Positions 7,090-61,690 of a DNA stretch of 64,000 bases are shown piece by piece. Position 1 is the first letter of the stretch, and the number at the start of each line of letters is the position of its first letter. The stretch is from contig WSYB01000004.1 in NCBI GenBank assembly GCA_009773645.1, positions 1 through 64,000 of the forward strand. Direction: 5' to 3'. The DNA is from Geobacteraceae bacterium (GTDB taxonomy: Bacteria > Desulfobacterota > Desulfuromonadia > Geobacterales > Geobacteraceae). A model generated the notes under the pieces. That model had not been told where the DNA came from. It saw only the letters and a program-made list of their open reading frames with translations, and did not search any database. The position numbers were made by a program, and so were the translations under genes.

Positions 7090-7108
7090 AGGATTTAAAA
7101 TTTATTTG

Positions 7109-7197
7109 CTCCGAGCCAGAACGCCTACAGGAAAACTCCCATGGCGCCTGGCCAATGGGTTTTGCCGGAAACGGCAGGGCCTCCCTTTGGAAAGGAG
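7109..7197 (+). promoter_or_regulatory. Probable molybdenum/tungsten cofactor (Moco/Tuco) riboswitch
   Basis: A structured leader just upstream of the aldehyde oxidoreductase. It starts CTCCGAGCC, contains a perfect GNRA-capped hairpin (TGCCG-GAAA-CGGCA at about 7163-7176) and ends with CTCCCTTTGG followed by AAAGGAG. This order of elements is what I remember of the Moco RNA motif, which precedes molybdenum and tungsten enzyme genes. The last stem contains an AAGGAG that could serve as a ribosome-binding site for an in-frame ATG at 7203, so translation control is plausible. The assignment is from memory of the consensus, not a covariance search. Confidence 0.7.
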
Positions 7198-7250
7198 AAA
7201 AAATGTGGCGCCCTGCCACACCATTCAACAAACGGGAAAGGAGATTATGT

Positions 7251-41617: not shown

Positions 41618-43246
41618 ATGAAACCAACCACCAAAGTCTTGCCGACTAAAGTCTTGCAAAAACGCATATTATACGCCGCTGAAGCAGGCAAATCCCGTTT
41701 ACTCGTGGAACTGCTTATTCATGGCAATATGACGGACGTTCGTGATTATTACGGCAATACTCCTCTTATTCTAACAGCCCGGAATGGCCATACCAAGTGT
41801 GTCAAGGCGTTAATTGATGCAGGAGCTGACATTCATGATGAAAACTTTGAAGGAGAAAATGCCTTGATCCTGGCGGCACGCGAGGCACACCCACGAGTAG
41901 TTCGCTTATTGCTGGAACGTGGCGCTCAATGCAACCCTAATGATATTGGCAACAGACGAGCTCTCGCCCTGCTCCAGCCAGGAGATAGTTCGATTTACAG
42001 GGCTGATTACATGATTTCAAACGACGACCCTGCTTCGGGGGCGCCATGTATTTCGATGGAGGGGCAATCTGAGCTTCGTGTTCAGCGATTCGCTAAATTA
42101 ATGTGTAAAGTAATTGAACTGCTCATATCCTACGGGGCAGATGTCGATGCTCTTGATGAAAAAGGAAGTTCTCCTCTTCACAATTTCTTGTGTTTAGAGA
42201 GGAAAGATTGGATACAGTTATTGTTAAAATACTCCCCTAACCTCAATATTGTCGAAAGCGGCGAATTATCTGTTCTTGGTGAAGCTATTATGTGGGGGGA
42301 ACACGATGTAGCTCGATTGCTTCTTGCATCAGGGGCTGATCCCAACGTCGGCGAACCGGCTAAACCGATTCATATAATTGCCAATTTGGCTCAGCCAACA
42401 CAAATTTTGAAAGAGCTGATCGCGGCGGGAGCAGATGTTAACGCGCAGAATAAAGAAAGAGGAAGGACTGCACTACATGAGGTGTGCTATCGAAAGAAAG
42501 ACAAAAAGGAGGTTGCTCAAATTTTGTTAGACGCCGGTGCAAACCCGGCTATCACTGATAATAACGGTTTTACGCCTTCTGATTACATGTATTACTTAGA
42601 CAGAGCCTCAGACGAGCTTGAAGACATCTTGCCCTTTAATTTTGGCCACGCAAGCCTTATATCGGCTGCCAAAGCAGGTGACTTTGATGAGCTGAAAGCA
42701 CAACTGCGCGAAATAATGCCAGATAAAATCAAGACATTGGCTCTGCATAAAGCTATCACACACAGTAAGTATGAATGCTGTCAACTATTGTTGGAAAACG
42801 GAGCAGATCCCAATAAATGTGAGATTCACGGGCTTACGCCGTTGATTTGTGCGACATATAACCTTGATATTGACGTAGTTTTATTATTGCTTTCATACAA
42901 GGCTGATCTTGAATTGGCAAACGACTGGGGCCAAAAGGCGCTATTTCTCACTTGCCAAAGCCACGTGCCTGACCTCCCCCAAGACGAACTAACACAAAAG
43001 CGATTGCGCATGGCTGAACTATTACTGGAACGTGGTGCAGACGTAGAAGGAGCCGACAAGGAAAGGTGGACGCCGTTGCGTCAGGCTGTCTTATCAGCAA
43101 ATGACATCGATCTTACCCGTTTATTGCTTGAGCATGGAGCAAATCCTGGCAAAAAAGATAATTCCGGTACTTCACCGCTTCAACTCGCTGAACAGTTCTG
43201 TTCTTCTAAAATGGTCGAACTGCTGAGGGAATATTTGAGGCATTAA
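41618..43246 (+). CDS. Ankyrin-repeat protein, copy 1
   Basis: A 542-residue protein made almost wholly of ankyrin repeats, e.g. YYGNTPLILTARNGHTKCVKALIDAGADI, GSSPLHNFL..., GRTALHEVCYRKKD and HGLTPLICATYNLD. About a dozen repeats can be counted. No signal peptide or enzymatic domain. GAGGAGTAAAT precedes the start. Ankyrin proteins bind other proteins; the partner is unknown. It is a close paralogue of the next gene and part of a tandem duplication. Confidence 0.85.
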   Translation: MKPTTKVLPTKVLQKRILYAAEAGKSRLLVELLIHGNMTDVRDYYGNTPLILTARNGHTKCVKALIDAGADIHDENFEGENALILAAREAHPRVVRLLLERGAQCNPNDIGNRRALALLQPGDSSIYRADYMISNDDPASGAPCISMEGQSELRVQRFAKLMCKVIELLISYGADVDALDEKGSSPLHNFLCLERKDWIQLLLKYSPNLNIVESGELSVLGEAIMWGEHDVARLLLASGADPNVGEPAKPIHIIANLAQPTQILKELIAAGADVNAQNKERGRTALHEVCYRKKDKKEVAQILLDAGANPAITDNNGFTPSDYMYYLDRASDELEDILPFNFGHASLISAAKAGDFDELKAQLREIMPDKIKTLALHKAITHSKYECCQLLLENGADPNKCEIHGLTPLICATYNLDIDVVLLLLSYKADLELANDWGQKALFLTCQSHVPDLPQDELTQKRLRMAELLLERGADVEGADKERWTPLRQAVLSANDIDLTRLLLEHGANPGKKDNSGTSPLQLAEQFCSSKMVELLREYLRH

Positions 43247-43730
43247 ATTGTCATGGTCAAACATGAAGGTCCCGGACAGACCTAGGAAAATTTAACAGTG
43301 GGTGCATAACGTGTTGACCGGCTTTGAAGTTTTATCCATCATCGGCACTCAATTTGACCTACATGATTTCAATTACTCCGGCAAATCACGCATAGATAGA
43401 GATGCAAATGGGTCACCTCGACGCCGATGTGGGTCACAATTGAAATCAGCACAACTTCAGTTCGAGTCCGTGCTGGCTCCCCGAGCGTGACGTCAGCAAA
43501 ACTTTTTTTCTCACAATTCCAGCTTTTTGATGACTCCAGTCAGTAAAGAAAAATCATCCTAGAACTGAATATAGTTACCGGCAGATTTTAGAAAAATATA
43601 TAATTTAGTATCAAACACATGCGACATTTTCTGTCACGTACTTATGCCATAATCAGTTCAATAAAAAACTCATGGACGCAACCATGGCACGTTCAGCAGA
43701 GGAAACAGCAAGCATTCTATGGAGGTGAAT
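43247..43730. other. Gap between the duplicated ankyrin genes
   Basis: Contains the promoter-like block 43591-43616, identical over 26 bp to 41463-41488, with TATAAT and CGACATTTTCTGTCA next to it. The part 43300-43500 has no supported gene and includes a GGGTCA-rich stretch typical of old mobile DNA. GGAGGT at 43722 sets the next start. Confidence 0.55.
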
Positions 43731-45353
43731 ATGAAGCCAATAACCAGGCAAATCCGACAACGCATGCTATATGCCGCTGAGGAAGGTAAATCCAGTCTAC
43801 TCATGAAACTGCTGCTTATACTGGACAATAGGACTGACGTTCGTGATTATTACGGCAATACTCCTCTGATGCTGGCAGCCCGAAATGGCCATACCAAGTG
43901 TGTTAAGGCGTTAATTGCTGCCGGTGGTGACATTGATGCTGAAAACTTCGATTATGAAAAGGCCTTGATCCTGGCGGCACGTGAGGCACACCCTCGAATG
44001 GTACGCCTGCTGCTGGAGCATGACGCTCAATGCAACCCTGGCAATTTGAGCAACAGACGGGCACTAGCCAAACTGCGGCCTGAATATAATTCGTTTTACA
44101 GAATTCGTTACTTAAATCCATCAACTCCAATTGGCGAAAATTGGGAGCCATGGAGTTCGTTAAAGGACCCATCGGAGCTGCGCATTCAGCGAATCGGTCG
44201 ATTGATGAGTAAGGTAATTGAACTGCTGATATCCTACGGGGCTGATGTCAATGCTCTTGATGAACACGGAGACTCTCCTCTTCACAACTTCTTTTCGTTT
44301 GATAAGAATGATTGGGTACAGTTGTTGTTAAAACACGCCCCTGACCTTAATGCTGTCGATAGCAGCGGATACTCACTTCTTTCTAAGGCCGCTAGGGAGG
44401 GGGAACACGATCTAGCACGATTGCTTCTTGCATCAGGGGCTGATCCTAACATCGGCGAATGGAAACCGATCCATATAATTGCCGGTTTGGCTCAGCCAGC
44501 ACAATTATTGAAAGAGCTTATTGCAGCCGGGGCGGATGTTAACGTGCAGGATAAAGATACAGGAAAGACTGCACTGCATGAGGCATGCGGTCGAGGGAAA
44601 GACAATAAGGAGATTGCGCAAATTTTGTTAGAAGCCGGTGCCGATCCGACTATCAAGGATAATTATGGTTTTACGCCCGCAGATTACGCGATGATGTTTG
44701 CCATAGGCAGTGCCTCAGACGAACTTGAAGGCCTCATTCCCTTTAATATTGGCCATGCACGCTTTTTATCGACTGCCATAACAGGTGACTTCGATGCCCT
44801 AAAAGCACAACTGCCCGACATAATGCCGGATAAAATTAAGACATTGGCTTTGAATATAGCAATCGCCAGCAGGAAATATGAGTGCTGTCAACTATTATTG
44901 GATAATGGAGCAGATCCAAATGGATTTGATATTCGTGGACTTACACCGTTGACTGGCGCGGTATCTATGGTTGATATTGACCTTGTTGGTTTGTTGCTTT
45001 CATACAAGGTTGACCTTGAACGGGCAACCAGCTGGGGCCAAAAGCCGCTATTTCTCGCCTGCCAATGTCGCATTGATGGATTGCCACAAGACGAACTATC
45101 ACAAACGCGATTGAATATGGCTGAACTATTACTGGAACGTGGTGCAGACGTAGAAGGAGCCGACAACCACGGGTGGACGCCGTTGCGTCAGGCTGTAGTT
45201 GCGATGAATGACATTAATCTTGCCCGTTTGTTGCTTCAGCATGGCGCAAAACCTGACAAAAAAGATGATTCCGATACTTCCCCCCTTCAACTCGCCGAAC
45301 TGTTCTGTTCTTCTGAAATGGTCGAACTGCTGCGGGAATATATGAGACATTAA
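43731..45353 (+). CDS. Ankyrin-repeat protein, copy 2
   Basis: A 540-residue paralogue of the preceding gene, with the same repeat order and matching starts (MKPITRQIRQRMLYAAEEGK) and ends (FCSSEMVELLREYMRH). The start at 43731 follows GGAGGT with a 4-base spacing and drops a four-residue extension. Differences are spread along the gene, so the duplication is not recent. Flanking DNA before and after each copy is also duplicated. Confidence 0.85.
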   Translation: MKPITRQIRQRMLYAAEEGKSSLLMKLLLILDNRTDVRDYYGNTPLMLAARNGHTKCVKALIAAGGDIDAENFDYEKALILAAREAHPRMVRLLLEHDAQCNPGNLSNRRALAKLRPEYNSFYRIRYLNPSTPIGENWEPWSSLKDPSELRIQRIGRLMSKVIELLISYGADVNALDEHGDSPLHNFFSFDKNDWVQLLLKHAPDLNAVDSSGYSLLSKAAREGEHDLARLLLASGADPNIGEWKPIHIIAGLAQPAQLLKELIAAGADVNVQDKDTGKTALHEACGRGKDNKEIAQILLEAGADPTIKDNYGFTPADYAMMFAIGSASDELEGLIPFNIGHARFLSTAITGDFDALKAQLPDIMPDKIKTLALNIAIASRKYECCQLLLDNGADPNGFDIRGLTPLTGAVSMVDIDLVGLLLSYKVDLERATSWGQKPLFLACQCRIDGLPQDELSQTRLNMAELLLERGADVEGADNHGWTPLRQAVVAMNDINLARLLLQHGAKPDKKDDSDTSPLQLAELFCSSEMVELLREYMRH

Positions 45354-47831: not shown

Positions 47832-50456
47832 TTACAGTTTCGCCGTTATCGCCGCCAAATCCTTACCCTTCGGCATCACAAAGATACAGGTTCCGCCGCT
47901 CCGCTTCTCCCACAACTCGCCCAAAGCACGCTTCTCCCGCGAGTCGTCATCCGACCAACGGTCAGCGCCTTTGTACTCCACTGCCAGGAAGCGTCCATCT
48001 TTGAGGAGACAGACGAAATCCGGGTAGAAGCGGTCGGTTGATGTTTGGAGCCAGAAGGAGTACCGCTCGTTTTTCTCGATGTTCCTGACCCAAAATTTCA
48101 TCTCCTGGTGGGTATCAAGGAAGATTGCACAAGCCTCTTCCTCCCCATTCATGCTCCCGATGTTCTTGTAGTAGTGCTTCTGAAAGTGGTAACTGCCATG
48201 ATATTTCGTATTATAGGGATATTCATTTGGGTCGAACGAAAAGCAGAACTCCGGTGTTACCAGCAAGGGGGTCTCGCACTCGGGAAGTAGCAGGGACTGG
48301 TATGCCTTGAAGTGTGCTGCCTTCCGGTGCGCTTCAATTTTGGCTGTCACTTTCTGCCGGAGATTGAACTTGTCATGATACAGCTGGCCTATCGTAAATT
48401 TCCGCTCCTCGATGAGGTGGTTTATCAATGCGGCTAGGAAGGCCCCGGATTCAGATGGAATGACATCCTGGTGGGGAATATTCCTGTCCAGCCAATAGAC
48501 CAGGTTCACTACCGTCTGGGAGTGGTCATTAGTTAGGAGGTTCATCTGCTCCTGCAGGTCTTGGATGAACCTCTTACCAATCTTTCCCTTGTCGGTGATA
48601 TCGATTTCGACAACCTTGCCGTCGAATGGCTTCTGTGAGTATTCAGCATCCGTCAGTTTGAAATCGCACTGGGAGAGCCGCCAGGGCCTGTCCAGAAAAT
48701 AGGTATCCTCGAATTGGACAAAAAGCTCTCCTTGCTTTATTGCCAGGGCCGGTACGGAGAATGGCTCCCCTCTCTCAGCTGGTGATTTCGCCGCTGCCGG
48801 TAGACCTCGGGTCTTTCGGTAAACCCGCTCTACAGCTGCCTTCCCTTCAGGGGTCGTGAAGCATTCCTGCAAAGCATGTTTATCCGGTTCGGCCATGACA
48901 CCCTTGAAGGTTATTTCGCCTTTCTGTTCGTCGTAAGAAACCTTGCTGGCGACTTCTGCGGGAAGGGCATCGAGCTTCGGGGGTTCAGGTACCGGCTCAA
49001 CGACATGAGTCCAGAAGTGCTCCATTTCACCCTGTTTCCCAGTCGGGGCCTTAAGGATGAAGTCTTTCGCTTCTTGCCTATTGAAACCGTTTTGCACAAG
49101 GGCATCTTCAAGGGCATTCGCGGCATCGACAAAATCTTTCGAGGCAGAGAAGGCATAGGCCATATTCAAGTCGTCATTGTTCTTCTTCTCTGCATTCGGA
49201 AGCCTCATAATGCGGCCAAGAATCTGCTCTACAGCTGTCGAGGAGCGCATTTCCGCTACGGAACATAGGACATAAGCAAAGGGGCAATCCCAGCCTTCCC
49301 TGAGCGCTTGAACTGTGATGATGTACCTAATTTCACAAGTTGGTAATGACAGGTCGATGCCTTCGAGTCCCTTATCCGTTCCGGTCGCCCGGCATATCTG
49401 TTCAGACGGTATCTGGCAATCTTCAAGCAAGCACTGTTCAACGACCTCCACGGTCAGCCGTTCCTGCCCCTGTAATTGGGATTGGGCTTGAATCAGCATG
49501 ATGGGCCTGATGTACTCACCGGTAGCCTTACGCTCGGAACCTGCTTCATCCTCCAGGTGGCTCCTCATGGTTATTGCGTCATCGAGGAGTTCCTTCCAGT
49601 TGGGCCGCGTCTCAAGCCGGATTGGAAGCTTTATCATCCTGTCGGCTTTAAGTTCAGCTGCGGACACCGAATGAAGAACGTTGCTCGGGCTTTTTTCGGT
49701 ATCCGGGGTTGCTGTAAATTCGATAATGCAGGATGGATTGAATCGGGCAAGGGTCTCGAAAGACAAGGTGGTTCGTGCGTTATGGGCTTCGTCTACGATG
49801 ATAATGGGGCGGTGGAGCCGTAACAGATTTGCAAGGGATTGAATCGGCCTGCCGTCCTCATATTTTTCAAGGGACTCCAGAAGAGCTGGGTCGATTCCAT
49901 TGAAGTGCTCCATCAACGCCCCGGACTGTTCATAGACCTTTCGGCCCTCAGTATCGTCAACACGGAACGCCTGAATAGTGGAGACGATAATCGTTGCCCC
50001 GGTTGCAAGAGTCGGGCGGGTCACATAGAGTGCTTCCTGAATTGAGAGGACATTGGTTGTCGGGAACGTTTCTTCGACTGCCTGGCAGTAAGGGTGGCTC
50101 TTATCCTTCAGGGCCTTCAGGGTCTGCTCGCGGATTGTATTTGACGGGACAAGCCAGAGCACAACGGGAGAATCGGCATGTAAGAGTTCTTTGGCCGCAA
50201 CGTTGATGGAATAGCAGGCTACAAGGGTCTTCCCGCCTCCCGTGGGAATTCTGAGACAGACATAAGGGAGTCCGGGTAGCTCGTCTACCGCCGTGAATGA
50301 CAGCCCCTTGCCAAAAGTGTCACGAGTTGTCTTAAAATAGGCAAGCTCGACATCATCAAGTTGTTGGTATGTCTTGAAGAACACCTGTAAGGCGATGAGA
50401 GCTTTGCGTTGATATTCTTTTGGTTCAATCTTTTTGATTATTTGGGGAGCACTCAT
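47832..50456 (-). CDS. Type III-like restriction enzyme subunit (Res), SF2 helicase-nuclease
   Basis: An 874-residue protein. Helicase motifs: LRIPTGGGKTLVAC (Walker A, near residue 73), IIIVDEAHNARTTL (Walker B) and IEFTATP. A regulatory C-terminal part ends with FYPDFVCLLKDGRFLAVEYKGADRW, a PD-(D/E)xK nuclease core at about residues 815-835. It overlaps the Mod gene by four bases. It should cleave unmodified DNA after ATP-driven movement. Confidence 0.88.
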   Translation of the reverse strand: MSAPQIIKKIEPKEYQRKALIALQVFFKTYQQLDDVELAYFKTTRDTFGKGLSFTAVDELPGLPYVCLRIPTGGGKTLVACYSINVAAKELLHADSPVVLWLVPSNTIREQTLKALKDKSHPYCQAVEETFPTTNVLSIQEALYVTRPTLATGATIIVSTIQAFRVDDTEGRKVYEQSGALMEHFNGIDPALLESLEKYEDGRPIQSLANLLRLHRPIIIVDEAHNARTTLSFETLARFNPSCIIEFTATPDTEKSPSNVLHSVSAAELKADRMIKLPIRLETRPNWKELLDDAITMRSHLEDEAGSERKATGEYIRPIMLIQAQSQLQGQERLTVEVVEQCLLEDCQIPSEQICRATGTDKGLEGIDLSLPTCEIRYIITVQALREGWDCPFAYVLCSVAEMRSSTAVEQILGRIMRLPNAEKKNNDDLNMAYAFSASKDFVDAANALEDALVQNGFNRQEAKDFILKAPTGKQGEMEHFWTHVVEPVPEPPKLDALPAEVASKVSYDEQKGEITFKGVMAEPDKHALQECFTTPEGKAAVERVYRKTRGLPAAAKSPAERGEPFSVPALAIKQGELFVQFEDTYFLDRPWRLSQCDFKLTDAEYSQKPFDGKVVEIDITDKGKIGKRFIQDLQEQMNLLTNDHSQTVVNLVYWLDRNIPHQDVIPSESGAFLAALINHLIEERKFTIGQLYHDKFNLRQKVTAKIEAHRKAAHFKAYQSLLLPECETPLLVTPEFCFSFDPNEYPYNTKYHGSYHFQKHYYKNIGSMNGEEEACAIFLDTHQEMKFWVRNIEKNERYSFWLQTSTDRFYPDFVCLLKDGRFLAVEYKGADRWSDDDSREKRALGELWEKRSGGTCIFVMPKGKDLAAITAKL

Positions 50457-52168
50457 GACGCTTTCACCTCGTAAGGAATTTGCCGGAAGATGATGTTGTT
50501 TCGCCTCATGAAGGCATCCCCGATAAGACAGCCGTTGCCGTAAATTATCCGTGTGCCGTCATGGGGAGCAAGGGACGCCAGAACCTTTTGGGTTAAGACA
50601 TTTCCGCCATCATCGGTTTTGTCCCCCAGGATTCCGTTGTAGAGGAGGTAAATGCCGATACCGTTGGATACCCCAAGAAATGGAGATTTCAGGTCAGAAT
50701 CGACCGGTAACGGCTCCCCTGTTGCAACGAAAAAGACATGGTGGGCAAGGTCGCCGAATTTGACAGCCTGATTAATTTGACCCTCCGGTGTAAAGAGAGG
50801 TTCCCCAAGTTCACAGAAACGGAAGCCGCCGCCGAGTCCTGGTACCGCTTCGTTTTTGGCATTCTTGTAGCCGGTCGTCACTCGTTTCAAGCGCTCCGCA
50901 GTGATTTCCCGCGCAATTTGAGGCTTCATCTCGACAAGAATGAATCGGCGGGACTGCTTATCGCTCTTGTTTAGCTTCATGATAGCGTGGCCGGTGGTTC
51001 CTGAACCGGCAAAAGAATCAAGAATGAGGTCGTCGCCGGAAGTTGTGAAGCTGATAATCTCTTCAAGCAATGCTGTAGGCTTAGGAAAGTCGAACGGTCG
51101 TTTGTCGTGGTGGAGTATTTCCTTTATCTCGTTGGTACCTACCCGGCCATCCAGCGTAAAGAGGCTTGAAAGCTTGGCCCGGTAATCCTTTACGTACACC
51201 TTCAATTCGACAAGCTTTGTTTCGTCATCTCCAAATAAAATCCGCTTCTCTGATATCAACCGCTCCATAGTCTCTTGTGGGAAGCGATACCCCATCATTG
51301 GCTCTTTGCAGGGTTTCTTGGTATCAGGATGAATTACGTCATAGCGATACCCTTCTTTACCGGGGTTGTGGACGCTTTGGCTTCCGGTATATATCCCGTC
51401 ATCATCGATATATTTATAGCGGTCAAAAGGCCAAAGCTCGTTCTTGTTTACTCGAAACCATTTTGTGTAAGCTGCTTTCCGCTCTTCGAGGTCAGGATAC
51501 TTACTGATAAAATCTTCTCCTATCTGCAGTAGGCGCTCCTTCACGTCAAGATTTGGTGACTTCCAAACGGACTCTAGCTTTGATTTATTCCGTGCATAAC
51601 AGAGGATATATTCATGCTCTAGGGCTATATTCGTGGGGTTGTTATCCGTGGCGTTATCCCAAATTATAGTGCCTATCCTGTTTGTAACTCCGAATATCTC
51701 ATCAAGAAGCTGCCTCAGATTTGCGTACTCGACTTCATCAATGCTGGCGAAGATTACCCCGTCTTCACGTAAAAACCCATGCAGCAAGGAAAGCCGGGGA
51801 TACAGCATGCATAGCCATTTGTCATGACGTGATAAATCTTCTGCTTCAGCCCCTACAACGCGATTTAACCAGTCTTTGATTTCAGGACTGCTCACGTTGT
51901 CGTTGTAAATCCAGCCGGTACGCTTGCCCTTCTCATCCCGTTCATCGACGCCGGTATTGTACGGCGGGTCTATGTAGATGCACTTCACCTGCCCGGCGTA
52001 GTACGGAAGCAATGCCTTCAAGGCGAGAAGGTTATCCCCTTGGACGAGAAGATTCCCGCTGCCGGGTTCCCCCACTGACAGTTCTTCATTACATTTGAGT
52101 AGGTGGAAAGGCACTTTCTTGTGGTGTTCGACGACGGCTTTTTTGCCTATCCAGTCTAAAACGGGCAT
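50453..52168 (-). CDS. Type III-like adenine DNA methyltransferase (Mod), beta class
   Basis: A 571-residue methyltransferase. The catalytic DPPY is in YIDPPYNTGVDERDEKGK (residues 67-70) and precedes the SAM-binding LILDSFAGSGTTGHAI (near residue 375), the beta-class order. The target recognition domain lies between them. Its N-terminus MPVLDWIGKK recurs in a decayed copy at 58936-58993. Forms a restriction-modification pair with the Res gene. Confidence 0.9.
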   Translation of the reverse strand: MPVLDWIGKKAVVEHHKKVPFHLLKCNEELSVGEPGSGNLLVQGDNLLALKALLPYYAGQVKCIYIDPPYNTGVDERDEKGKRTGWIYNDNVSSPEIKDWLNRVVGAEAEDLSRHDKWLCMLYPRLSLLHGFLREDGVIFASIDEVEYANLRQLLDEIFGVTNRIGTIIWDNATDNNPTNIALEHEYILCYARNKSKLESVWKSPNLDVKERLLQIGEDFISKYPDLEERKAAYTKWFRVNKNELWPFDRYKYIDDDGIYTGSQSVHNPGKEGYRYDVIHPDTKKPCKEPMMGYRFPQETMERLISEKRILFGDDETKLVELKVYVKDYRAKLSSLFTLDGRVGTNEIKEILHHDKRPFDFPKPTALLEEIISFTTSGDDLILDSFAGSGTTGHAIMKLNKSDKQSRRFILVEMKPQIAREITAERLKRVTTGYKNAKNEAVPGLGGGFRFCELGEPLFTPEGQINQAVKFGDLAHHVFFVATGEPLPVDSDLKSPFLGVSNGIGIYLLYNGILGDKTDDGGNVLTQKVLASLAPHDGTRIIYGNGCLIGDAFMRRNNIIFRQIPYEVKAS

Positions 52169-52586: not shown

Positions 52587-55500
52587 TTATTGAAACATTT
52601 TTTCCTGACGTTGAATCTTTAGAACCCGCATAATTTTGGGTTTACTCCCATGTACCACCATCTCAACCTCATCGCCCACGGTAGTGTCTAACAATGCTTT
52701 TGCAAGAGGCGTATTTTCGTTAATAAGATTTCGTCGAGCATTGCTCTCCGAATCCACAATCATCACAGTGTGACGTTCCTCGGGCTTATCTACAGCGCAA
52801 TAAGTTACTAAATCCCCGACTTCGACAAAAAGTTCTTCAACCGAAACCGACAAGGAGGGGTCGAATGTGTCAACTGCCTCTTCTGCCGGCTGAACAACAG
52901 CTTCTTCTAACTCTTCAAAAACGTCTTCAATTTCATAATCTAGTGGTTCTGTCAGAGATTTTGCGCGGCGCTCTTCGAGGAAATTAAGCAACCGCTCTGA
53001 TTCGCGTCGAGGGTTATAGAACCAGTCGGTTGACCATATGCGCCAAATGCGGTCTTTCCATCCCAGTGACTCTAATATTGCCTGGCGGATACGGTCACGG
53101 TCTCGGGCAGAATTGCTGGAATGGTAGCTTGCTCCATCGCATTCAACAGCTGCCAGGAATTCACCCGGTCGGTCTGGATTGCGTACCGCCAAATCGATGA
53201 AAAAACCTGCTACTCCCACTTGAGGAACAACCTCATAGCCTCGATTCCTCAACATATCGCCAACAGAAATTTCAAAATCACTGTCGGCTTCTCGTCCTGA
53301 TACCTCCGTGCTGGTGAGAATGCCGTGCTTTGCGAAGTCCAAATACTCTTTCAAGGCCCTGGTGCCTGCTGGCGTATTAGTGGCAAGAATAATGTCTTCC
53401 GGAAGCATGGAAGTGAACAACTCAATTTTCCGTCGAGAACGGGTAAATAATACGTTGAGACGCCTCCAGCCATCAGGGCGGCTAATCGGGCCAAAATTCT
53501 GGCGAACCTTGTCTGTCCCTGCGGCCTTGCCGAATGTCGTAGAAATGAAAATTATATCACGTTCATCACCTTGAACGTTCTCAAGGTTCTTGACGAAGAA
53601 CGGCCAGCCTTCCTCTTCCCAGTTCGAGATAAAAGTCTGGGCCTCTTCGATATTGCGTATCTTCTTGTCGAGCAAGTCTTCAATCAGGTCTCGCTGCGTC
53701 TGATTGAGCGTTACTACACCCAGCGATTCTTCCGGGAATTTCATCATGTGCTCAATCACCGCATCGGCTACACGCTGTGCTTCAGGCATGTTCTGCCGGT
53801 CTTTGTAGGTTCCATTTTTTATATAGCGGTAACGGAGACCAAGACGGCTATTACGGGCAAATGGTGAGGGGAATACAATCAGTTTTCCGTTGTAGAAATG
53901 GTGGTTAGAGAAGGCAATCAAGGACTCATGCTGAGAGCGGTAATGCCATTTCAGAGTCCTAACTGGGTGAAAGAGCTGCTGACAGATGTCAAGGATGCTT
54001 TCTGAGCCTGTAAACACGGCAGGAGTATCCGAATCCTCTTCTTCGTCACCATCGTCAACCAGGCGGTCAAAAAAGTTGGTTGGAGGTAGCTGTTTTGGGT
54101 CTCCAACAACGATTAATTGAGAACCTCGCGCAATAGCGCCAAGTGATTCTTCAGGACGTAGCTGTGAAGCTTCATCCATCACAATCATGTCAAAATTGAT
54201 AGTGCCTTGCTGTATATATTGGGCAACGGATAATGGCCCCATCATGAAACACGGCTTAAGTGCTTGTACTGCTTTCCCGGCACGTCTGATTAGTTGGCGA
54301 ATAGAGATATGTTTGGTTTTCTTACCTAATTCCTTCCTCAGGAGATGCATTTCTGTCAGTTCAGAAACCTTGTAACTTGTCACTCCATCAGGGACTTTCT
54401 TTGTCCTGTCAATTTCATAAGCAAAGCTTCTTCCGGTGTGGCGAATAATATCTTTATCAAGTGCAACAAAATCTGAGCGCAACTTCTCATGATTTACGCC
54501 AGAGAACTTATCGAGTTCAGGAAATTGTATGTATATTTTTCTGCCTATTGAACGATAGACAACATACTCGAAAACATTTCCAATAGATTCAAACGGCAAT
54601 TCTTTATTTTCAATGTGGGTTACAAAGCTCTTTAGTCCTATATCGCGGCAAATAGTTCGTTGGGTGTAATATTTAGACCACGGCAGAACAGCCTCTAAAT
54701 TTGCTACAGCAAACTCAATCCTTTTGAGGAGTAAGTGAACATAGCCGTCTCCCAAACTATTCCAATTGTTTATCTCAAGTTCCCCAAAATCTCTTAATTC
54801 ACTGAGCTTGTTTAAAAGATTGCGATGATTTCCCGTGATGTTCTGAAGCTGTACTTTTGACCAGTTAAAATTCTCAACGGCGTTATGACACAATATAAAT
54901 GAAAATAGCGGTGTGCCTTGAATAGTACGTTTTTTTGAAACCACTTCACCCCATGAAAGGGTTGCAGAAAGCGATTCTAAATCAGTATCCATTCCATAAA
55001 AGAGGTCTTGCAACATCGACATGATAGATTCGTCGCTACGGATTTTATGAATCAATACGACTGATTTCTTTTTAGAATTGAGGCCAGTTACGACCTCTTT
55101 AGCTGTTTTTCCAGTGGCACCAACGGGCTTTAAAAGATTGACCAAATCGGCGGCAGCAGCGATGCGGTGGCCTGCTATCGAATGGTATTCTTCCCAGCTT
55201 GCTGTAGTTGTCCTATCTGGATACTCTGCAAATTTTGACAACGAATCATCAAGCTCAAGCTTTGCAACGATAAAGGTACGAGTTTTCGAGGTATTGCAAT
55301 TACTGTCGGCATATTCTGAAAGCGTTTCAGCAAGACTCTCGGATGCATGGGCAAGCCTTGCGAGCTGTAAAAGATATTCTCGCCAATTGATGCATGGAAT
55401 TTGGGAGATGCTTGGAAGTAACGGCTCCAGCTTATCTTGAATCGCATGAATTCCATAATTCAGAGCATCAAAATCAGCTGAGGCTGATAACAGTTCCAGT

Positions 55501-58500
55501 TTCGCATTCAGTACATCGACGGAACGTTTTGGTGATACATCATGTTTTACAAAATGTTGGAGATACGAAGAGGAGTCCCTAAAACCGTCTGCAATCAAGA
55601 GAATTTTTTGGTTATATCCATTCCATCCGAATTGCCTTAAAACAGAATCCATTTGAGTCGCAACGTCTTCAAGAAGCTGTCTGCTTTCTTGGAGGCAAAT
55701 ATCAAATTCGGCAGAAATCGCTTCCAGCCTTGCAGATAATGCTCCCAACTGATTAATCGTCTGCGAATTCAGCGAAGTCAGGTCAACTTGCTCAATGAAA
55801 CCTGGATGCTTAAGCAATTCTGCCTGGCTCTCAATATACCAGTTATGCAGCCGTCTGATTTTTGAAAAATCTGTATCGAGACCCTTAAAAAGGGTGCCAA
55901 AAGTTTTTTGGAATTCATCGTTTGAAATAAATAACGTTCGGTGCTCTATCCAGCAAACTAGAGAGGTGATTTTTGCTTCATATTCAGTAGCTTTACATTT
56001 TATTTTCGTCTTGGATACACTGTTGAAAAGCTTTTTGGCAGCTCTCCAATCTCCATTGAAGATATTGAAGAGGCTGTCACCGCGCCTAAAAGTCAGGATT
56101 GCGGCTTTTAGGTTCCCTAGATCTGGAAGAACATCAAGATAAAATTCGTTGGCAAGACTCTGCCGTTGCGAGTTCTCGGAGGAAAAGGCTCCTTCTGCCT
56201 TGGGTAACAGCTCCAAAGTCAGGGGATGCGCCAGGGACGCATGACGATAATCCAAAAGGTCGGATGGTGCTGACGCTGATATTTTGCTGACGGTCGCCAA
56301 AAATTCGATTGATTTCTGTGTGCTGTCGAAGGGCAAACCTAGTTTGCTTGCATACCCCTCTATTTCATGTAGCAACCGGGTGATTCGGTCATGGAGGCTA
56401 TGTAATTCATGCTGTCGTTTATCCAATTCCCCAATTGATAAGTCCGAGAGGTAGAATTCCGCCGCCTGCTTTGCTTTTTCTAGAACAGTCGAATCCACAT
56501 TCACGCCAGGAAGAATTTCATCGATTCCATCGCCTTGCCCTAAATTCGCAATAGCAGATGGAGAGTCATCAAATTTCAAAGCCCTGCGTTTAGCTATGCT
56601 CGACACACGTTCAAGAGATTGCTCAAGCCGGGAGACCTCTTGTGACAGCAGCTTGGCTCCCTCCTTGATATATTTTCCCGGCTGCTCTACAAGGGATAGC
56701 GGCAAGGTAGCCTGAAGTCTTGAATCAAGATTTTCGAGACTTGAAACATAGATGGGGAGATAGTTACATGATAATTCGGAATTGACCTGTTTAAACCGAA
56801 TCAGCGCAATTTCAGCACTTGAAACTGACTCTGCCAGAACATCAAGGGGCGTTGAGAAAGCAGCTTTAGCTAGTGTTTTTGTACACGTCTCTACAACCGG
56901 CTCAGCGGTATCATATTCCAGTTGACAATCCGGGCATAATAATTTTTCCGATGCATTCCGGAGTTCCCTGGCGGATTCAACCTTTTGAATTACACCATTA
57001 AGAATGACTCTGTTGCGCTTCCCTAGTGGGTCAGTCGAGGTGAATACACGGGGAAGAAGTTCACTTTGTAAGTTTCCAGGAGGAACAGGTAATTCCTGAA
57101 TGATTCGATTGAATGAAGTCAAGTCATCAATCGAAGGCTCCTCCAAAAATGAAGCTTGATCCTGAAACTCAATTACGAGAACATACAACCCATCAGCAAT
57201 GGCTTGAGCTTCATTGATAATGCGGCCTATGGCAAAATCATCGCCTGGGGCAAGTGGTTTCGGAATAAAACCCCACCAGGGATGATTTGAATCGTAATTT
57301 TTTAATGTTGAAAAGAGTTGCCCGAGTCCTTCTAATTTTGCCCGAATATCCTCTATATGGTCGTATGTCCAACTGTCTGCCTTGGGTATGTTTAACGACT
57401 GGATTTTATTTACCAAATCACCAATAGATTGACGATATTTCTCTGTTTTCCAAAAGACATCATAAACAGTCATTCCTAGTTCATTGCCAATTTGGCTTGA
57501 AATTATCTCGACATAACGATTCAAGTCTTTCTTGTGCCGATTGAGGGTAGTTATTTTGTTCTGAAAATGTTGTGGTAGAAAAAATTGAGCGTCCAGGCGG
57601 TCTTGCAAGTCGCTTAAGAGCTTTTTCTTTTGGGTCTTATGACTATGCAGTTCAAGGCAAAAATGCCCAAGGTGCGCGTGATTTAGGCGATGACGTACCA
57701 CCTCAAGAGCCGCCAATTTTTCAGATACAAATAGTATCTTCTTTCCCGCCTTCAACCCAGCGGCAATGATGTTCGTAATTGTCTGTGACTTCCCTGTCCC
57801 TGGTGGGCCATTGATGACCATGTTTTTGCCAGAAAGCACGTCGATAATTGCGCTATGCTGGGATGAGTCTGCGTCATAGATTAACGGGAGGTCTCCTTGC
57901 GGGTGCGAATCAATTTCATAATCTTCCGGGGAAAGGCTCACTTCGTTCCCGGAACCGCCAGAGAAAATTTCGTTCAATAAGGGATGGCTCAACAGCCCAG
58001 GCCACTTTTTCGGGTTGAGGTCGTCCCATATGGCAAGTTTTCCGAATGATAGAAACCCTAACGTGAGTTGATATCGGACTTTCCACCTTTTCTTATTCTT
58101 AACAGCCTGTGAGATACTGCTAAAGTAGGTGCCAGGCTCATCTTCATCGTTGAAATCAGGTAACTGGAGATTGAAATCCTGGCTTAATTTCTCTCGTAGA
58201 GTTTGGTTCTCGTGAACGTCCTCTCCTGAATAGTTAATTGCATATTGATAGGTTCTGGTGTCTGGGTCGATTGCCCCTCTATCAAGTGTAACGGGCACTG
58301 CAAGCAAGGGTGCAAATATTGGTTTTTCAGAGTCGTCACTGTCGTAAAACTCAAGAAAGCCGAAAATAAGGTACAACATGTTTGTACCAGTCTCTTCAAT
58401 GACAGTTCGAGCATCCGATGCAATTTTTTTGCTAACCTTATAAAGGTCTGCTGGATAATAGAGGGCTTGGAGCCTTGGAGTGTGTTTATGGGTTGATGAA

Positions 58501-58865
58501 CAACAAGACTCAAGTGGAAAATCTTGTTCAACATCAATCCCCAGCGATTGAGCATGCGCTTTTACATCCGTTTTTTTTGTAGAATAACTATCGGGAGGTG
58601 GGTCTGGAATAAACTTGATTGAAAGGGCCTTGCTTTCTATGAGACGACTGAACACAAGGTTAAGATTTGGTTTGTCTACAAACTGTAATGACCTGCCTTT
58701 GGGGTATCTGTAGCTGATAAGGCGATTTCGAGTTGAAAGGTCAAGCAGCTTGGTGCGGAGTTTTTGAAGAGCCTGCTCAATTGACATCCTGCCGCTGAAA
58801 AGGTCGCTTACAATCCGGTCAGCATTCTCAGATTCGTAGATATTATCCTGTTGGACTTGCTCCAT
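52587..58865 (-). CDS. Giant DUF4011-type SF1 helicase-nuclease (Hhe-like) with GreA/GreB-like C-terminus
   Basis: A 2,092-residue protein. Residues 30-330 form a DUF4011-like region (LRTKLLDLSTRNRLISYRYPKG). Walker A is GPPGTGKS at 353-360; a long helical insert follows (about 380-1500). The second RecA half has VMDEASQLRPEESL, VVGDPKQLPPTNFF, KWHYRSQHESLIAFSN, VQGDERDIIFIS and LNVLFTRSR (about 1570-1850). A Vsr/MTES-type nuclease follows (AAVECDGASYHSSNSARDRDR, about 1905). The last 80 residues (TPLAKALLDTTVGDEVEMVVHG) look like the C-terminal domain of GreA/GreB, where relatives often have DUF3320. DUF4011-helicase-Vsr proteins are anti-phage proteins (Hhe). Confidence 0.85.
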   Translation of the reverse strand: MEQVQQDNIYESENADRIVSDLFSGRMSIEQALQKLRTKLLDLSTRNRLISYRYPKGRSLQFVDKPNLNLVFSRLIESKALSIKFIPDPPPDSYSTKKTDVKAHAQSLGIDVEQDFPLESCCSSTHKHTPRLQALYYPADLYKVSKKIASDARTVIEETGTNMLYLIFGFLEFYDSDDSEKPIFAPLLAVPVTLDRGAIDPDTRTYQYAINYSGEDVHENQTLREKLSQDFNLQLPDFNDEDEPGTYFSSISQAVKNKKRWKVRYQLTLGFLSFGKLAIWDDLNPKKWPGLLSHPLLNEIFSGGSGNEVSLSPEDYEIDSHPQGDLPLIYDADSSQHSAIIDVLSGKNMVINGPPGTGKSQTITNIIAAGLKAGKKILFVSEKLAALEVVRHRLNHAHLGHFCLELHSHKTQKKKLLSDLQDRLDAQFFLPQHFQNKITTLNRHKKDLNRYVEIISSQIGNELGMTVYDVFWKTEKYRQSIGDLVNKIQSLNIPKADSWTYDHIEDIRAKLEGLGQLFSTLKNYDSNHPWWGFIPKPLAPGDDFAIGRIINEAQAIADGLYVLVIEFQDQASFLEEPSIDDLTSFNRIIQELPVPPGNLQSELLPRVFTSTDPLGKRNRVILNGVIQKVESARELRNASEKLLCPDCQLEYDTAEPVVETCTKTLAKAAFSTPLDVLAESVSSAEIALIRFKQVNSELSCNYLPIYVSSLENLDSRLQATLPLSLVEQPGKYIKEGAKLLSQEVSRLEQSLERVSSIAKRRALKFDDSPSAIANLGQGDGIDEILPGVNVDSTVLEKAKQAAEFYLSDLSIGELDKRQHELHSLHDRITRLLHEIEGYASKLGLPFDSTQKSIEFLATVSKISASAPSDLLDYRHASLAHPLTLELLPKAEGAFSSENSQRQSLANEFYLDVLPDLGNLKAAILTFRRGDSLFNIFNGDWRAAKKLFNSVSKTKIKCKATEYEAKITSLVCWIEHRTLFISNDEFQKTFGTLFKGLDTDFSKIRRLHNWYIESQAELLKHPGFIEQVDLTSLNSQTINQLGALSARLEAISAEFDICLQESRQLLEDVATQMDSVLRQFGWNGYNQKILLIADGFRDSSSYLQHFVKHDVSPKRSVDVLNAKLELLSASADFDALNYGIHAIQDKLEPLLPSISQIPCINWREYLLQLARLAHASESLAETLSEYADSNCNTSKTRTFIVAKLELDDSLSKFAEYPDRTTTASWEEYHSIAGHRIAAAADLVNLLKPVGATGKTAKEVVTGLNSKKKSVVLIHKIRSDESIMSMLQDLFYGMDTDLESLSATLSWGEVVSKKRTIQGTPLFSFILCHNAVENFNWSKVQLQNITGNHRNLLNKLSELRDFGELEINNWNSLGDGYVHLLLKRIEFAVANLEAVLPWSKYYTQRTICRDIGLKSFVTHIENKELPFESIGNVFEYVVYRSIGRKIYIQFPELDKFSGVNHEKLRSDFVALDKDIIRHTGRSFAYEIDRTKKVPDGVTSYKVSELTEMHLLRKELGKKTKHISIRQLIRRAGKAVQALKPCFMMGPLSVAQYIQQGTINFDMIVMDEASQLRPEESLGAIARGSQLIVVGDPKQLPPTNFFDRLVDDGDEEEDSDTPAVFTGSESILDICQQLFHPVRTLKWHYRSQHESLIAFSNHHFYNGKLIVFPSPFARNSRLGLRYRYIKNGTYKDRQNMPEAQRVADAVIEHMMKFPEESLGVVTLNQTQRDLIEDLLDKKIRNIEEAQTFISNWEEEGWPFFVKNLENVQGDERDIIFISTTFGKAAGTDKVRQNFGPISRPDGWRRLNVLFTRSRRKIELFTSMLPEDIILATNTPAGTRALKEYLDFAKHGILTSTEVSGREADSDFEISVGDMLRNRGYEVVPQVGVAGFFIDLAVRNPDRPGEFLAAVECDGASYHSSNSARDRDRIRQAILESLGWKDRIWRIWSTDWFYNPRRESERLLNFLEERRAKSLTEPLDYEIEDVFEELEEAVVQPAEEAVDTFDPSLSVSVEELFVEVGDLVTYCAVDKPEERHTVMIVDSESNARRNLINENTPLAKALLDTTVGDEVEMVVHGSKPKIMRVLKIQRQEKMFQ

Positions 58866-59097: not shown

Positions 59098-59639
59098 ATG
59101 CGTCATTCTTGGTTTCTAATCCCAGTCGTCCTTTTTTTACCTCACCACACCTGCCCTTGCCAAAGACCCCATCCGCATCTTTGACCCATGTGCCGTTACG
59201 AAGGTCAGCGACGGGGATACCATAACCGCGGACTGCTCCGGGACGAAAATTAAGGCCCGGCTCTACGGCATTGATGCTCCAGAAACGACGAAAATCAACC
59301 GGAAGACTGGTCGGGTCAGCAAACAGGGTCAACAAGGCACAACAAGCACTAGCGGGGAAAATCAGAGGCCGGACGGTAAAGGTAGACGTTATGGACATTG
59401 ACCGGTATAAGCGGCTGGTATCGGTGATTTCTCTCGATGGACGGGATATCAACCTGGAGATGGTACAGGAAGGCTGGGCCTGGGCATACCGGCAATATCT
59501 GCAACGGCCTTATGCATCGGAATACATCGGGGCGGAAGAAAAGGCGAGGAAGCAAAAACTGGGGCTATGGAAACAAGCGAATCCGGAGCCGCCGTGGGAG
59601 TTCAGGAAGCTTCAGAAAAAGAGCAAAAGTAAATTATGA
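59098..59639 (+). pseudogene. Staphylococcal-nuclease-like (thermonuclease) gene with two frameshifts
   Basis: Three frames in order give MRHSWFLIPVVLFL (signal peptide), LTTPALAKDPIRIFDPCAVT then VSDGDTITADCSGTKIKARL and GIDAPETTKIN, and finally QQALAGKIRGRTVKVDV up to KLGLWKQANPEPPWEF. Joined, this is a complete exported SNase. The first break is at the T7 run near 59130, the second near 59330. The SNase active-site residues (D, R and E region) are still present. Confidence 0.78.
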
Positions 59640-59697
59640 AGAACGGTAACAAAGAATGGGCCTCTTAAAGCAGCAAAATTGTGGAGGAAATATCGCT

Positions 59698-60576
59698 TTA
59701 ATATTTAGCCTTAACAGCCAATCTTTTTACTGAACTCGCGTATATATTTCGACTCGTAAACTTCTTTTGAGCACGTAACCATTCATCTTCGGAAATTTCT
59801 CCTGCAGCAAATTTGAGCTTACTTTGGTGAAGTTCAGCACGCCAATTTTTCTTGGTCTTCCCGACTGACGCACCGTGGGCGATATTGATGCCAGTAACAA
59901 CCTGACTTGAGGATTTATCAAAAACACCACCTTTCGTTGGATGTATTCTATAACCCTCATCTTTTACTATCATTTTGACTTTGTTCTCGATTTCTTTTGG
60001 AATATCCTTACCAGAAAAAGTTACGTCATCTGCATAGATGGTGAATTTAAGTCCCCATTGCTTCGCGAGACCCAATAACCTGCTTTGCAATCGAAAAGTT
60101 ACGATGTTGGCAATATCCGTACTGGTCGGCGCCCCTTGTGGAAGTTGATAATCACATGTAACCAGCTTTGTGAGAAGAGAAGCTAAATCGTCATGACAAC
60201 CAAGTTCGTCAATAAAAGCCCGATTTACCCTCTCTGGCCTGACTGAAGGGAAAAATGACTTCAAGTCAAAAGTGAATATGACCGGATTTCCCAAATGCTC
60301 CCGTGCATTGGTAATATTTGATTTACCCTTGATACCGTAATTGGAAGGTATTCCGTAGTCGATTTGTGAAAATACAAGCTTATGGAGCTTTTTTTGAATA
60401 CTTTTGAGGGAAGGATACGGTGACGAAAAGTTTCTCAAATCACCGGAAGGTTTAGGTTTACTCCACCGGCTATATGTATCATTTGCATTGTTTGCAATGC
60501 GCCATAGTTCATTAATTGGAATACCGAGTAATGTTGCCAAATCTGATACCGTCTGGACTGGCAACCGGCGTTTCAT
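59698..60576 (-). CDS. Retron reverse transcriptase
   Basis: A 292-residue RT. Catalytic carboxylates are Asp104 in FTFDLKSFFP and Asp183/184 in YADDVTFSG; LPQGAPTS at 145-152 is motif 4-like. The two motifs that separate retron RTs from other RTs are both present: NAxxH at 90-94 (NAREH) and VTG at 227-229. No maturase, integrase or protease domain. It overlaps the XRE gene by four bases and lies downstream of a structured RNA. It should copy part of that RNA into msDNA. Confidence 0.92.
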   Translation of the reverse strand: MKRRLPVQTVSDLATLLGIPINELWRIANNANDTYSRWSKPKPSGDLRNFSSPYPSLKSIQKKLHKLVFSQIDYGIPSNYGIKGKSNITNAREHLGNPVIFTFDLKSFFPSVRPERVNRAFIDELGCHDDLASLLTKLVTCDYQLPQGAPTSTDIANIVTFRLQSRLLGLAKQWGLKFTIYADDVTFSGKDIPKEIENKVKMIVKDEGYRIHPTKGGVFDKSSSQVVTGINIAHGASVGKTKKNWRAELHQSKLKFAAGEISEDEWLRAQKKFTSRNIYASSVKRLAVKAKY

Positions 60577-60872
60577 GCTGCTTTCCCGCTCTGAAAAAGC
60601 AAGAGAGAAGCGACATTTTCTTGCAACTTTCTATAGTTATCGGCGTTATCTGTGTCAAGCTCGCCGGGAATATCCGTAGATAGGAAATTTAAAGCGTCTT
60701 TTGAAATCTTGAACTCCTTGGCAACACGCTCAATAATATCGGGACTTGGAATCCGTTTACCATTTTCAATCTGACAAAGGTAGTTTGCACTTATTTTCAG
60801 CTTTTCTGCCAAATCTTTCTGCTGCCAGCCAAAGCTGATTCTCAACGATTTTATTAATCTTCCTACCTTCAT
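60573..60872 (-). CDS. XRE-family regulator of the retron operon
   Basis: A 99-residue protein with helix-turn-helix at residues 8-60 (LRISFGWQQKDLAEKLKISANYLCQIENGKRIPSPDIIERVAKEF). A helical C-terminus follows. Overlaps the RT start, so co-translated. Some retron types carry such a DNA-binding partner; it may repress the operon or act with the msDNA as antitoxin. Confidence 0.87.
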   Translation of the reverse strand: MKVGRLIKSLRISFGWQQKDLAEKLKISANYLCQIENGKRIPSPDIIERVAKEFKISKDALNFLSTDIPGELDTDNADNYRKLQENVASLLLFQSGKAA

Positions 60873-60923: not shown

Positions 60924-61223
60924 TTACCTCAGAAATTGTTCGATTACCTGTTTAGCTTCTGCCAAAAGCTCTTTCAGGAGCCTTACTGTTGGCATTAGCA
61001 ATGGTACTAAGATAAAAAGATGTTTAACTTTAGATACTCTTTTTTCTTCAGGTAATGACTGAACAACCTCCTTCTCCATTTCCATGAGAAAAACTTCAAC
61101 TTCCATCATGGAATCTCTGGTTGAGGAAACAGGGCCTACTGAATCACTTATCACGGTTACTAGTTGTTTTGCTTCTTTAATAGTTTCTAAGACTATCTTG
61201 ACTTTCAGCTCCCTTCGAAACAT
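60924..61223 (-). CDS. Unknown helical protein between retron RNA and XRE gene; candidate effector
   Basis: A 99-residue protein (MFRRELKVKIVLETIKEAKQ...) with a long helical start and a moderately hydrophobic segment at about residues 68-82 (HLFILVPLLMPTVRLL), which may touch the membrane. An excellent AAGGAGGTG precedes it. Its fixed place between the RNA and the XRE/RT genes makes it the best candidate for the retron's toxin or effector. No family recognised. Confidence 0.65.
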   Translation of the reverse strand: MFRRELKVKIVLETIKEAKQLVTVISDSVGPVSSTRDSMMEVEVFLMEMEKEVVQSLPEEKRVSKVKHLFILVPLLMPTVRLLKELLAEAKQVIEQFLR

Positions 61224-61273
61224 ATGTCTTCACCTCCTTTCGTGTGGAATCCATGACGAAAAAAGGATGACAG

Positions 61274-61571
61274 CTCTTTTCCAAGCTACCATCATCCACC
61301 CCATTTGAGTTTGCATCGCTCCTTGGGCCTTTCGTCAATCGTATTTTGGAGCAACAAAAGAGCGTTGCCCTTGTCGAACACAAAATACCCGTGAACGACT
61401 CACCCATGCACTACTTACGCATGCACGTGTGACAGCTTCATCTTCCGACGAAGTACGAGAAAACGGCTACTCCCTGTACCCCGCAAACAAACACACACTT
61501 AATACCCGTAGTGCGGGAGGGGGGAGATAACGGCTTTTCCTGGGGGTGAATGAGACCGCAGCTATGAAGAG
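61274..61571 (-). ncRNA. Predicted retron msr-msd non-coding RNA
   Basis: On the minus strand two ends are complementary: 61543-61563 (5' arm) with 61284-61302 (3' arm), 18 of 19 paired with G-U allowed and one 2-nt bulge, extended by CTCTTC (61566-61571) against GAAAAGAG (61274-61281). This fits the a1/a2 repeats of retrons. Between them are a GGAA-capped hairpin (61436-61453), a CATGC/GCATG hairpin (61405-61423) and a larger hairpin with arms 61341-61348/61381-61388 and 61349-61355/61364-61370, the likely msd stem. The branching G cannot be fixed by eye. Confidence 0.78.
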
Positions 61572-61644
61572 ACATATTTTGCCGCGATAAGTTATTCAGT
61601 TTTCAAGGAACAACTCAGCGAACCACTGAGGATGCAATAATGCG

Positions 61645-61673
61645 TTTATACAATGCCCGAAAATTGTTGTCAA
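61645..61673 (-). promoter_or_regulatory. Sigma-70 promoter of the retron
   Basis: On the minus strand, TTGACA (61668-61673), 17 bp, TATAAA (61645-61650): near-consensus. It would start transcription about 65 bases before the 5' arm of the non-coding RNA. Confidence 0.75.
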
Positions 61674-61690
61674 GTTAATTTGACTGTGAG

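Follow-up and report, generated by a model that had tools for sequence, protein, structure and literature searches.

What kind of RNA is encoded at positions 61274-61571 of a Geobacteraceae genome, and does it do more than serve as a template? The 64,000-nucleotide stretch analysed here, hereafter the window, encodes on its minus strand a structured element that a sequence-only reading had described as a non-coding RNA with a1/a2-like ends and an msd-like hairpin. Three genes follow it on the same strand, and the answer proposed here depends on how the RNA is related to its own promoter region at one end and to the first of these genes at the other.

The retron operon and its folded RNA

The order of elements on the minus strand is ncRNA, small ORF (99 aa; 60924-61223), XRE-type HTH gene (99 aa; 60573-60872) and retron reverse transcriptase gene (RT, 292 aa; 59698-60576), and all three reading frames are open. 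The top PADLOC model for the RT is RT_VI (222 bits), the best among 43 families, and the protein also matches Pfam RVT_1. For the HTH protein the top model is HTH_VI (69.5 bits, E 5e-20), the best among 19, with a match to Pfam HTH_3. The RT contains IYADD, TNAREH and VVTGINI, which we take to be the catalytic YxDD motif and the NAxxH and VTG motifs of retron RTs; residues N90, H94, D183, D184, V227 and T228 are invariant across the 7 RTs compared, and the RT of retron Ec86 is its top PDB sequence match (E 2e-24). The order small ORF, HTH, RT is also found in L002, L111, L112, L006, L007, L015 and L150-L153. Type VI retrons, a class of Mestre et al. 2020, are outlined in an excerpt of PMC8541194 that describes an RT preceded by a gene for a DNA-binding protein and a small auxiliary ORF, with the ncRNA upstream, and the present operon has this layout. 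It differs from them in that its small ORF has no above-threshold family and its ncRNA no Rfam family at gathering score.

The feature is very probably a type VI retron ncRNA encoded in the chromosome, and synthesis of msDNA by the RT would be expected from its retron family. The ncRNA is single-copy in its own genome, and among 141 genomes of the order two, counting that of the window, have an RT match at E <= 1e-30. Single-sequence searches of genome_contigs and viral_contigs yielded no close relatives. An alignment query retrieved 218 relatives from genome_contigs, the best 80 of the 218 being at most 41% identical, and none from viral_contigs. Plasmid relatives of the HTH protein and the small ORF were not found at the limits used, and none of the four plasmid RT matches that were fetched had an annotated HTH gene. 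In Rfam, the sole weak match in the region was mir-137 (E 0.05), which was taken for chance.

With regard to the RNA itself, the minus strand of 61264-61571 folds at -120.7 kcal/mol, against -100.2 +/- 5.3 kcal/mol for shuffled sequences (z -3.85), a value reached by none of 100 shuffles, while 61284-61563 alone gives a z of -4.18 (0/200 shuffles); the claim that such a fold is unlikely in random DNA is borne out. The a1 arm AGCUGCGGUCUCAUUCACCCCC (61542-61563) and the a2 arm UGGGGUGGAUGAUGGUAGCU (61284-61303) are both present and form a duplex of -28.0 kcal/mol, equalled by 2 of 300 shuffles. The outward extension of this pairing that had been proposed competes with another helix, since a2 overlaps the 5' arm of a terminator (61259-61297). 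Within the duplex lie a 7-bp GNRA-type hairpin, CUUCGUC-GGAA-GAUGAAG with the loop GGAA (61436-61453), and, in predicted folds, an msd-like nested hairpin (61341-61388) with an inner 7-bp stem including one G-U pair (61349-61370) and outer 8-bp arms, GUAUUUUG and CAAAAUAC. Two G residues just inside a1 (61539-61540) are a candidate priming (branching) site by their position, which we presume from known retron anatomy. The functional RNA probably extends beyond the limits first assigned, from about 61637 to about 61259.

Conservation was followed mainly in L002, the one close relative found, from another family of the same order that keeps the four-part order. Its proteins are 77% (RT), 86% (HTH) and 71% (small ORF) identical to those of the window, and its RNA folds with a z of -3.98 and a similar outline. 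Between the two RNAs, the 5' and middle hairpins are 53% identical (75/142) and the 3' third 72% (69/96). The GNRA hairpin is the best-supported element, with three double changes, one single change and no broken pair among 7 pairs, the seventh pair in L002 closing a 3-nt loop. The a1/a2 core is nearly unchanged and therefore uninformative on covariation. Directly 5' of a2, the motif GACGAAAGGCCCAAGGAGCGAUGCAA (61311-61336) is identical in L002 at 26 of 26 positions, and RCAAAGAGY-like strings are found by eye at a similar place in L111, L112, L116, L118 and L150-L153. In the msd-like hairpin, the inner stem is kept in L002, and an alignment read by eye retains 3 of the 8 outer pairs, so that the nested arms stand in the window and are mostly lost, on the outer side, in its relative. 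L151-L153 are three type VI loci related to one another; of the 77 pairs predicted for them, 11 show a double change and 25 have a break or gap in one or more of the three sequences, and the covariation term is slightly unfavourable (+1.79).

A retron ncRNA with a1/a2-like ends is therefore supported by the RT_VI and HTH_VI context, the syntenic relative and the compensatory changes. The msr and msd boundaries that had been drawn within it are putative and find no support in L002, where the outer msd arm is unconserved; the priming G is a candidate by position. The sequence-only reading had also passed over three features considered below: the terminator that shares a2, a leader resembling those of rRNA operons (rrn), and a possible pairing with the ribosome-binding site (RBS) of the small ORF.

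The operon adjoins a 2092-aa helicase-nuclease of DUF4011/MTES_1575 type and a type III restriction-modification pair. This setting looks like a defence island, and an anti-phage role is suggested by gene context. The large protein (52587-58865, minus strand) combines DUF4011, AAA and MTES_1575 nuclease regions with a C-terminal GreA/GreB-like domain and has PDC-S37 and Hhe as its top PADLOC models; the restriction enzyme and methyltransferase genes lie at 47832-52168 on the same strand. Just downstream of the RT, on the plus strand (59170-59640), is an apparently broken nuclease-like gene, which by eye we liken to micrococcal-type nucleases. Further away on the plus strand are a Moco (molybdenum/tungsten cofactor) riboswitch at 7097-7213 (Rfam RF01055, 70.3 bits), a 655-aa protein matching Orf5/HEC-06/SspE-like defence models (31946-33913) and two ankyrin-repeat proteins of 542 and 544 aa (41618-43246 and 43719-45353), possibly a tandem duplication.

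The 3' end of the RNA and the small ORF

Searches of PADLOC, NCBIfam and PHROGs assigned the small ORF to no family at E <= 0.1, and Pfam gave a single sub-threshold match, to DUF677. The encoded protein has a hydrophobic or amphipathic stretch towards the C-terminus. In the 25 loci listed, the length of the corresponding protein is 46-110 aa; most of these proteins are basic, and many have such a stretch on the C-terminal side. Those of L111, L112 and L006 share residues among themselves, and their N-terminal part resembles that of the window protein by eye, which is a resemblance rather than a test. As the operon shows no other candidate, this small hydrophobic protein is our best guess for the effector, and it may be toxic.

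Ahead of this ORF lies an intrinsic terminator (61259-61297), in which a2 pairs with a strand here named a3, followed by six U; the same element is present in L002. The a3 strand CCUUUUUUCG (61257-61266), which is the 3' strand of the terminator, is also complementary to the Shine-Dalgarno (SD) region of the small ORF, CGAAAGGAGG (61233-61242), over 10 contiguous base pairs, two of them G-U as read by eye. This match is reached by 2 of 500 shuffles (p 0.008-0.01). Of 16 loci, about half have an anti-SD strand at p<0.05: nine in the first run and eight in a rerun (Fisher 6-7e-6). The comparison sets gave 0 of 16 downstream ORF starts, chosen by script as the best SD start and not always that of the HTH gene, and 2 of 32 control genes (rank test against control genes, p 0.012). 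L057, which has no SD, was dropped from these tests, and the close relatives L002, L122, L123 and L140 stand outside the 16-locus count, with p values of 0.007, 0.177, 0.357 and 0.309, respectively. One of the four held-out loci has such a strand, and L115, L117, L053, L120 and L136 have no local one.

Pairing of a2 with a3 was assessed in the window's group of loci, namely the window, L002, L111, L112, L116 and L118. For all six, with a manual choice of a3, no more than 22 of 300 shuffles match the a2:a3 hairpin; the six-U tail is seen, by eye, only in the window and L002. The same shuffle test did not reveal this arrangement in the phage loci or in L004. With extended, G-rich a2 strings the a1:a2 test was uninformative in L111, L112 and L116 (136, 138 and 65 of 300 shuffles), and in L002 it chose a different, C-rich a1 (26/300). 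Between L118 and L150, three a2:a3 pairs are changed on both sides, and by manual reading the SD strand has changed to match at two of the three. These matching changes in a2, a3 and SD suggest that both alternative pairings have been kept.

A second contact may involve the start codon. The head segment AUAUGUCU (61570-61577) matches, as its complement, the sequence around the start codon of the small ORF; when the leader is folded in full, the minimum-energy structure pairs this segment with 61222-61229 and the SD with a3. One C-G/U-A change on both sides distinguishes the head pairing of L002 from that of the window; the minimum-energy fold of L002 does not contain this pairing. Head:start-codon contacts occur in 7 of 14 loci, against 3.2 expected (P 0.02), and in L151-L153 the segment that follows the boxA-like element described below can pair with the start codon itself (0, 2 and 27 of 300 shuffles). 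Occlusion of positions -14 to +4 is reached by 1 of 60 shuffles in the window; no more than 2 of the 14 loci have significantly greater occlusion than their shuffles (p<0.05), with L117 showing the opposite (60/60).

Other folding measures are mixed. In a fold restricted to the last 130 nt, pairing of the window SD falls below that of shuffled sequence (0.48 vs 0.62), and equilibrium SD occlusion over 21 loci is 0.64 vs 0.56. In the full leader the SD pairing of the window is 0.94, and it is almost as high, 0.88, when the 5' part is shuffled (8 of 40 at or above). An effect of the 5' part is present in L002 (4/40) and L118 (1/40) and absent from L111, L112 and L116 (32, 36 and 35 of 40).

The same data could be read more simply: the RNA would be an ordinary type VI ncRNA, an msr-msd template with a plain terminator, and the SD match a coincidence, arising because a CC-U6 tail lies opposite GGAGG. 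A terminator with a U-tract is indeed present in the window and L002, the equilibrium test detects no excess SD pairing in the window, and about half of the type VI loci, including three of the four held-out ones, have no anti-SD strand. However, significant anti-SD strands that are not U-tracts occur in L111, L112, L118, L004 and L135, and from L118 to L150 the SD strand changes in step with a2 and a3, which makes the simple reading unlikely, if the strongest of the rivals. Translational control of the small ORF by the ncRNA is best described as a supported hypothesis, not a result, and is held tentatively.

L122, L123 and L138-L142 are Peduovirus-like phages and E. coli loci. The type VI retron region of phage P2_2H1 has a match in 99 of 5426 complete E. 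coli genomes. In seven aligned copies of this region the 3' RNA segment is near-invariant, and a CCUUAUG strand faces a CAUAAGG ribosome-binding site.

The leader upstream of a1

Upstream of the ncRNA, the minus strand carries a promoter-like sequence, TTGACA-17-TATAAA (61643-61674), read from the sequence; a consensus scan omits it, as the scan requires the second hexamer to end in T. At the same place L002 has, by eye, TTGACT-17-TATAAG. Downstream of the promoter follow a leader hairpin in a boxB-like position, CUCAGUGGUUCGCUGAG (61614-61630), and a boxA-like element, UUGUUCCUUGAAAACUGAAUAACU (61590-61613, core 61599-61610), which sits 26 nt upstream of a1. The boxA-like pattern has one match in the window, against 0.11 expected.

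A pattern of the form YTCYTTGAMA, formed by eye on loci that were later counted together with others, precedes the small ORF by 150-560 nt in 10 of the 12 non-phage type VI loci; its background is 0.014 per 410 nt (62 in 1,865,092 nt). Once the pattern had been fixed, it was also found, each time after a hairpin recognised by eye, in all four held-out type VI loci with an RT (L150-L153), of which L151-L153 are related to one another and L150 is related to L118. L130, which has an HTH gene, no detected RT and no boxA, was left out of the held-out count, and L064, cut by a contig end, was also excluded. A hairpin at the leader position is visible by eye in most boxA-bearing loci and is not clear in L057 and L120. 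The boxA-like string is absent from L115 and L004, and from all nine phage or gammaproteobacterial type VI loci tested, a set that includes several close relatives of one another, and in this respect the window differs from those type VI retrons. In the type VI-like loci L004, L121 and L124, which are without boxA, a palindrome, TTCGCNACCAGCGAA, lies near TTGAC and is possibly an operator of the HTH protein.

The likeness to rRNA operons comes from several genomes. In the genome of the window itself, two contig ends have a promoter, a hairpin and the string UUGGUCUUUGAAAACUAAAUAG (GGUCUUUGAAAACUAAAUAG), as in a 16S leader; both stop at one and the same point and have the appearance of rrn leaders truncated by the assembly. 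No 16S match was found in that assembly, so the rrn leader there is a presumed one. The retron leader has the same layout, and by manual count 18 of its first 22 letters are common to the host's presumed rrn leader. The 16S leaders of two further genomes, G172 (to which the L115 retron belongs) and G274, have UUGGAUCUUUGAAAACUGAACAG and UUGUUCUUUGAAUACUAAAUAG, respectively. The strict YTCYTTGAMA pattern misses both, and the likeness is thus looser than among retron loci.

An excerpt of PMC7862264, citing Stringer et al., places boxA antitermination leaders upstream of rRNA operons and CRISPR arrays, and the window resembles these in having a promoter, a hairpin and a UUCUUUGAAAA-like string before a long, structured, untranslated RNA. 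It differs in that the element precedes a retron ncRNA and that its dependence on Nus factors is putative. Judged by sequence likeness, the element is likely to be a boxA-type leader. Such leaders may extend beyond type VI, given that among 72 other RT loci with 800 nt or more of upstream sequence, nine (L043, L048-L051, L081, L089, L096 and L041) have a boxA-like string no further than 1200 nt ahead of the RT, eight of the nine from Bacteroidota and five near-identical. In the literature searched there was no relevant paper on retrons and boxA; among the matches listed for retrons and antitermination, neither term stood in a title or abstract, and those listed for retron leaders contained nothing on the subject. 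Neither an rrn-like leader nor a pairing of the RNA 3' end with the RBS of the small ORF was found in the literature searched.

Alternatively, the palindrome and CTTTGAAAA might be a DNA operator and promoter through which the XRE-type HTH protein regulates its own operon, rather than a boxA-type RNA element. The TTGAAA or TTGACA inside the boxA-like element does look like a -35 box, and in the boxA-less L004, L121 and L124 a different, TTCGCTACCAGCGAA-like palindrome adjoins TTGAC, as would be expected of an operator. This account is rather improbable, however: a good promoter lies further upstream in both the window and L002, the stem of the leader hairpin varies in sequence among loci while the string downstream of it is conserved, and that string resembles 16S leaders.

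Still less probable, to the point of being hardly credible, is a decayed retron whose RNA fold persists in an element that no longer works, as suggested by the rarity of close RT relatives (in the two genomes of the order noted above) and the apparently broken nuclease-like gene next door; against it stand the three open ORFs, the retained catalytic and retron motifs of the RT and the conservation of ncRNA and ORFs with L002, including the 26/26 motif.

A proposed mechanism and its meaning for type VI retrons

We favour, with moderate confidence in the explanation as a whole, a type VI retron ncRNA that is preceded by an antitermination leader and exerts control over its operon through its 3' end. 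The promoter would start a transcript with a leader like that of an rRNA operon, consisting of the hairpin and the boxA-like string, which would probably load Nus factors and allow the polymerase to cross a long, untranslated and highly folded RNA. The a1 and a2 arms would then close the ncRNA, from which the RT would make msDNA, as in other retrons of its family. The a2 strand would have two possible partners, a1 or a3, the second pairing forming the terminator; when a1 holds a2, a3 would be free to pair with the SD sequence, and the segment just after boxA could bind the small ORF at its start codon. As long as the ncRNA is intact and folded, the small hydrophobic protein, a probable effector, would in this way be poorly translated, and phage damage to the RNA, to reverse transcription or to the protein complex might release its translation.

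Comparison with known systems suggests roles for the remaining parts. Small hydrophobic toxins of type I toxin-antitoxin systems are translationally locked, with their RBS hidden in mRNA structure. The small protein of the window is similarly hydrophobic and its RBS possibly hidden in the same manner, with the difference that the locking RNA here is presumably also the template for reverse transcription. In the type IX retron Kva2, an excerpt of PMC13405049 describes an operon of RT, ncRNA and winged-helix DNA-binding protein, with a HEPN RNase. The window likewise combines RT, ncRNA and a DNA-binding protein in one operon; unlike Kva2 as described there, its sole candidate effector is the 99-aa hydrophobic protein. 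By analogy with the winged-helix protein of Kva2, the HTH protein might act as a sensor or neutraliser, and the same analogy is what suggests that it could bind msDNA.

Extended to a branch of the type VI retrons, the idea becomes more speculative, being possible rather than probable: the ncRNA would be both the msDNA template and a self-contained switch, transcribed behind a Nus-type leader, with an a1/a2 fold that conceals the RBS of a small, membrane-active effector (or its start codon, in some of the relatives), so that phage attack on the RNA, on reverse transcription or on Nus or Rho would release translation.

No paper on the mechanism of type VI retrons was found among the matches listed in the literature searched, and the anatomy of the ncRNA bears on both their phage sensing and their effector. 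A retron transcript with an rRNA-type leader would be a counterpart to the boxA leaders of CRISPR arrays noted in the excerpt of PMC7862264. If the proposal is true, bacteria would have one common means of shielding long immune RNAs against premature termination, and phages that reprogramme Rho or Nus factors could trigger immunity at that point; the ncRNA would then be a built-in safety lock as well as a DNA template.
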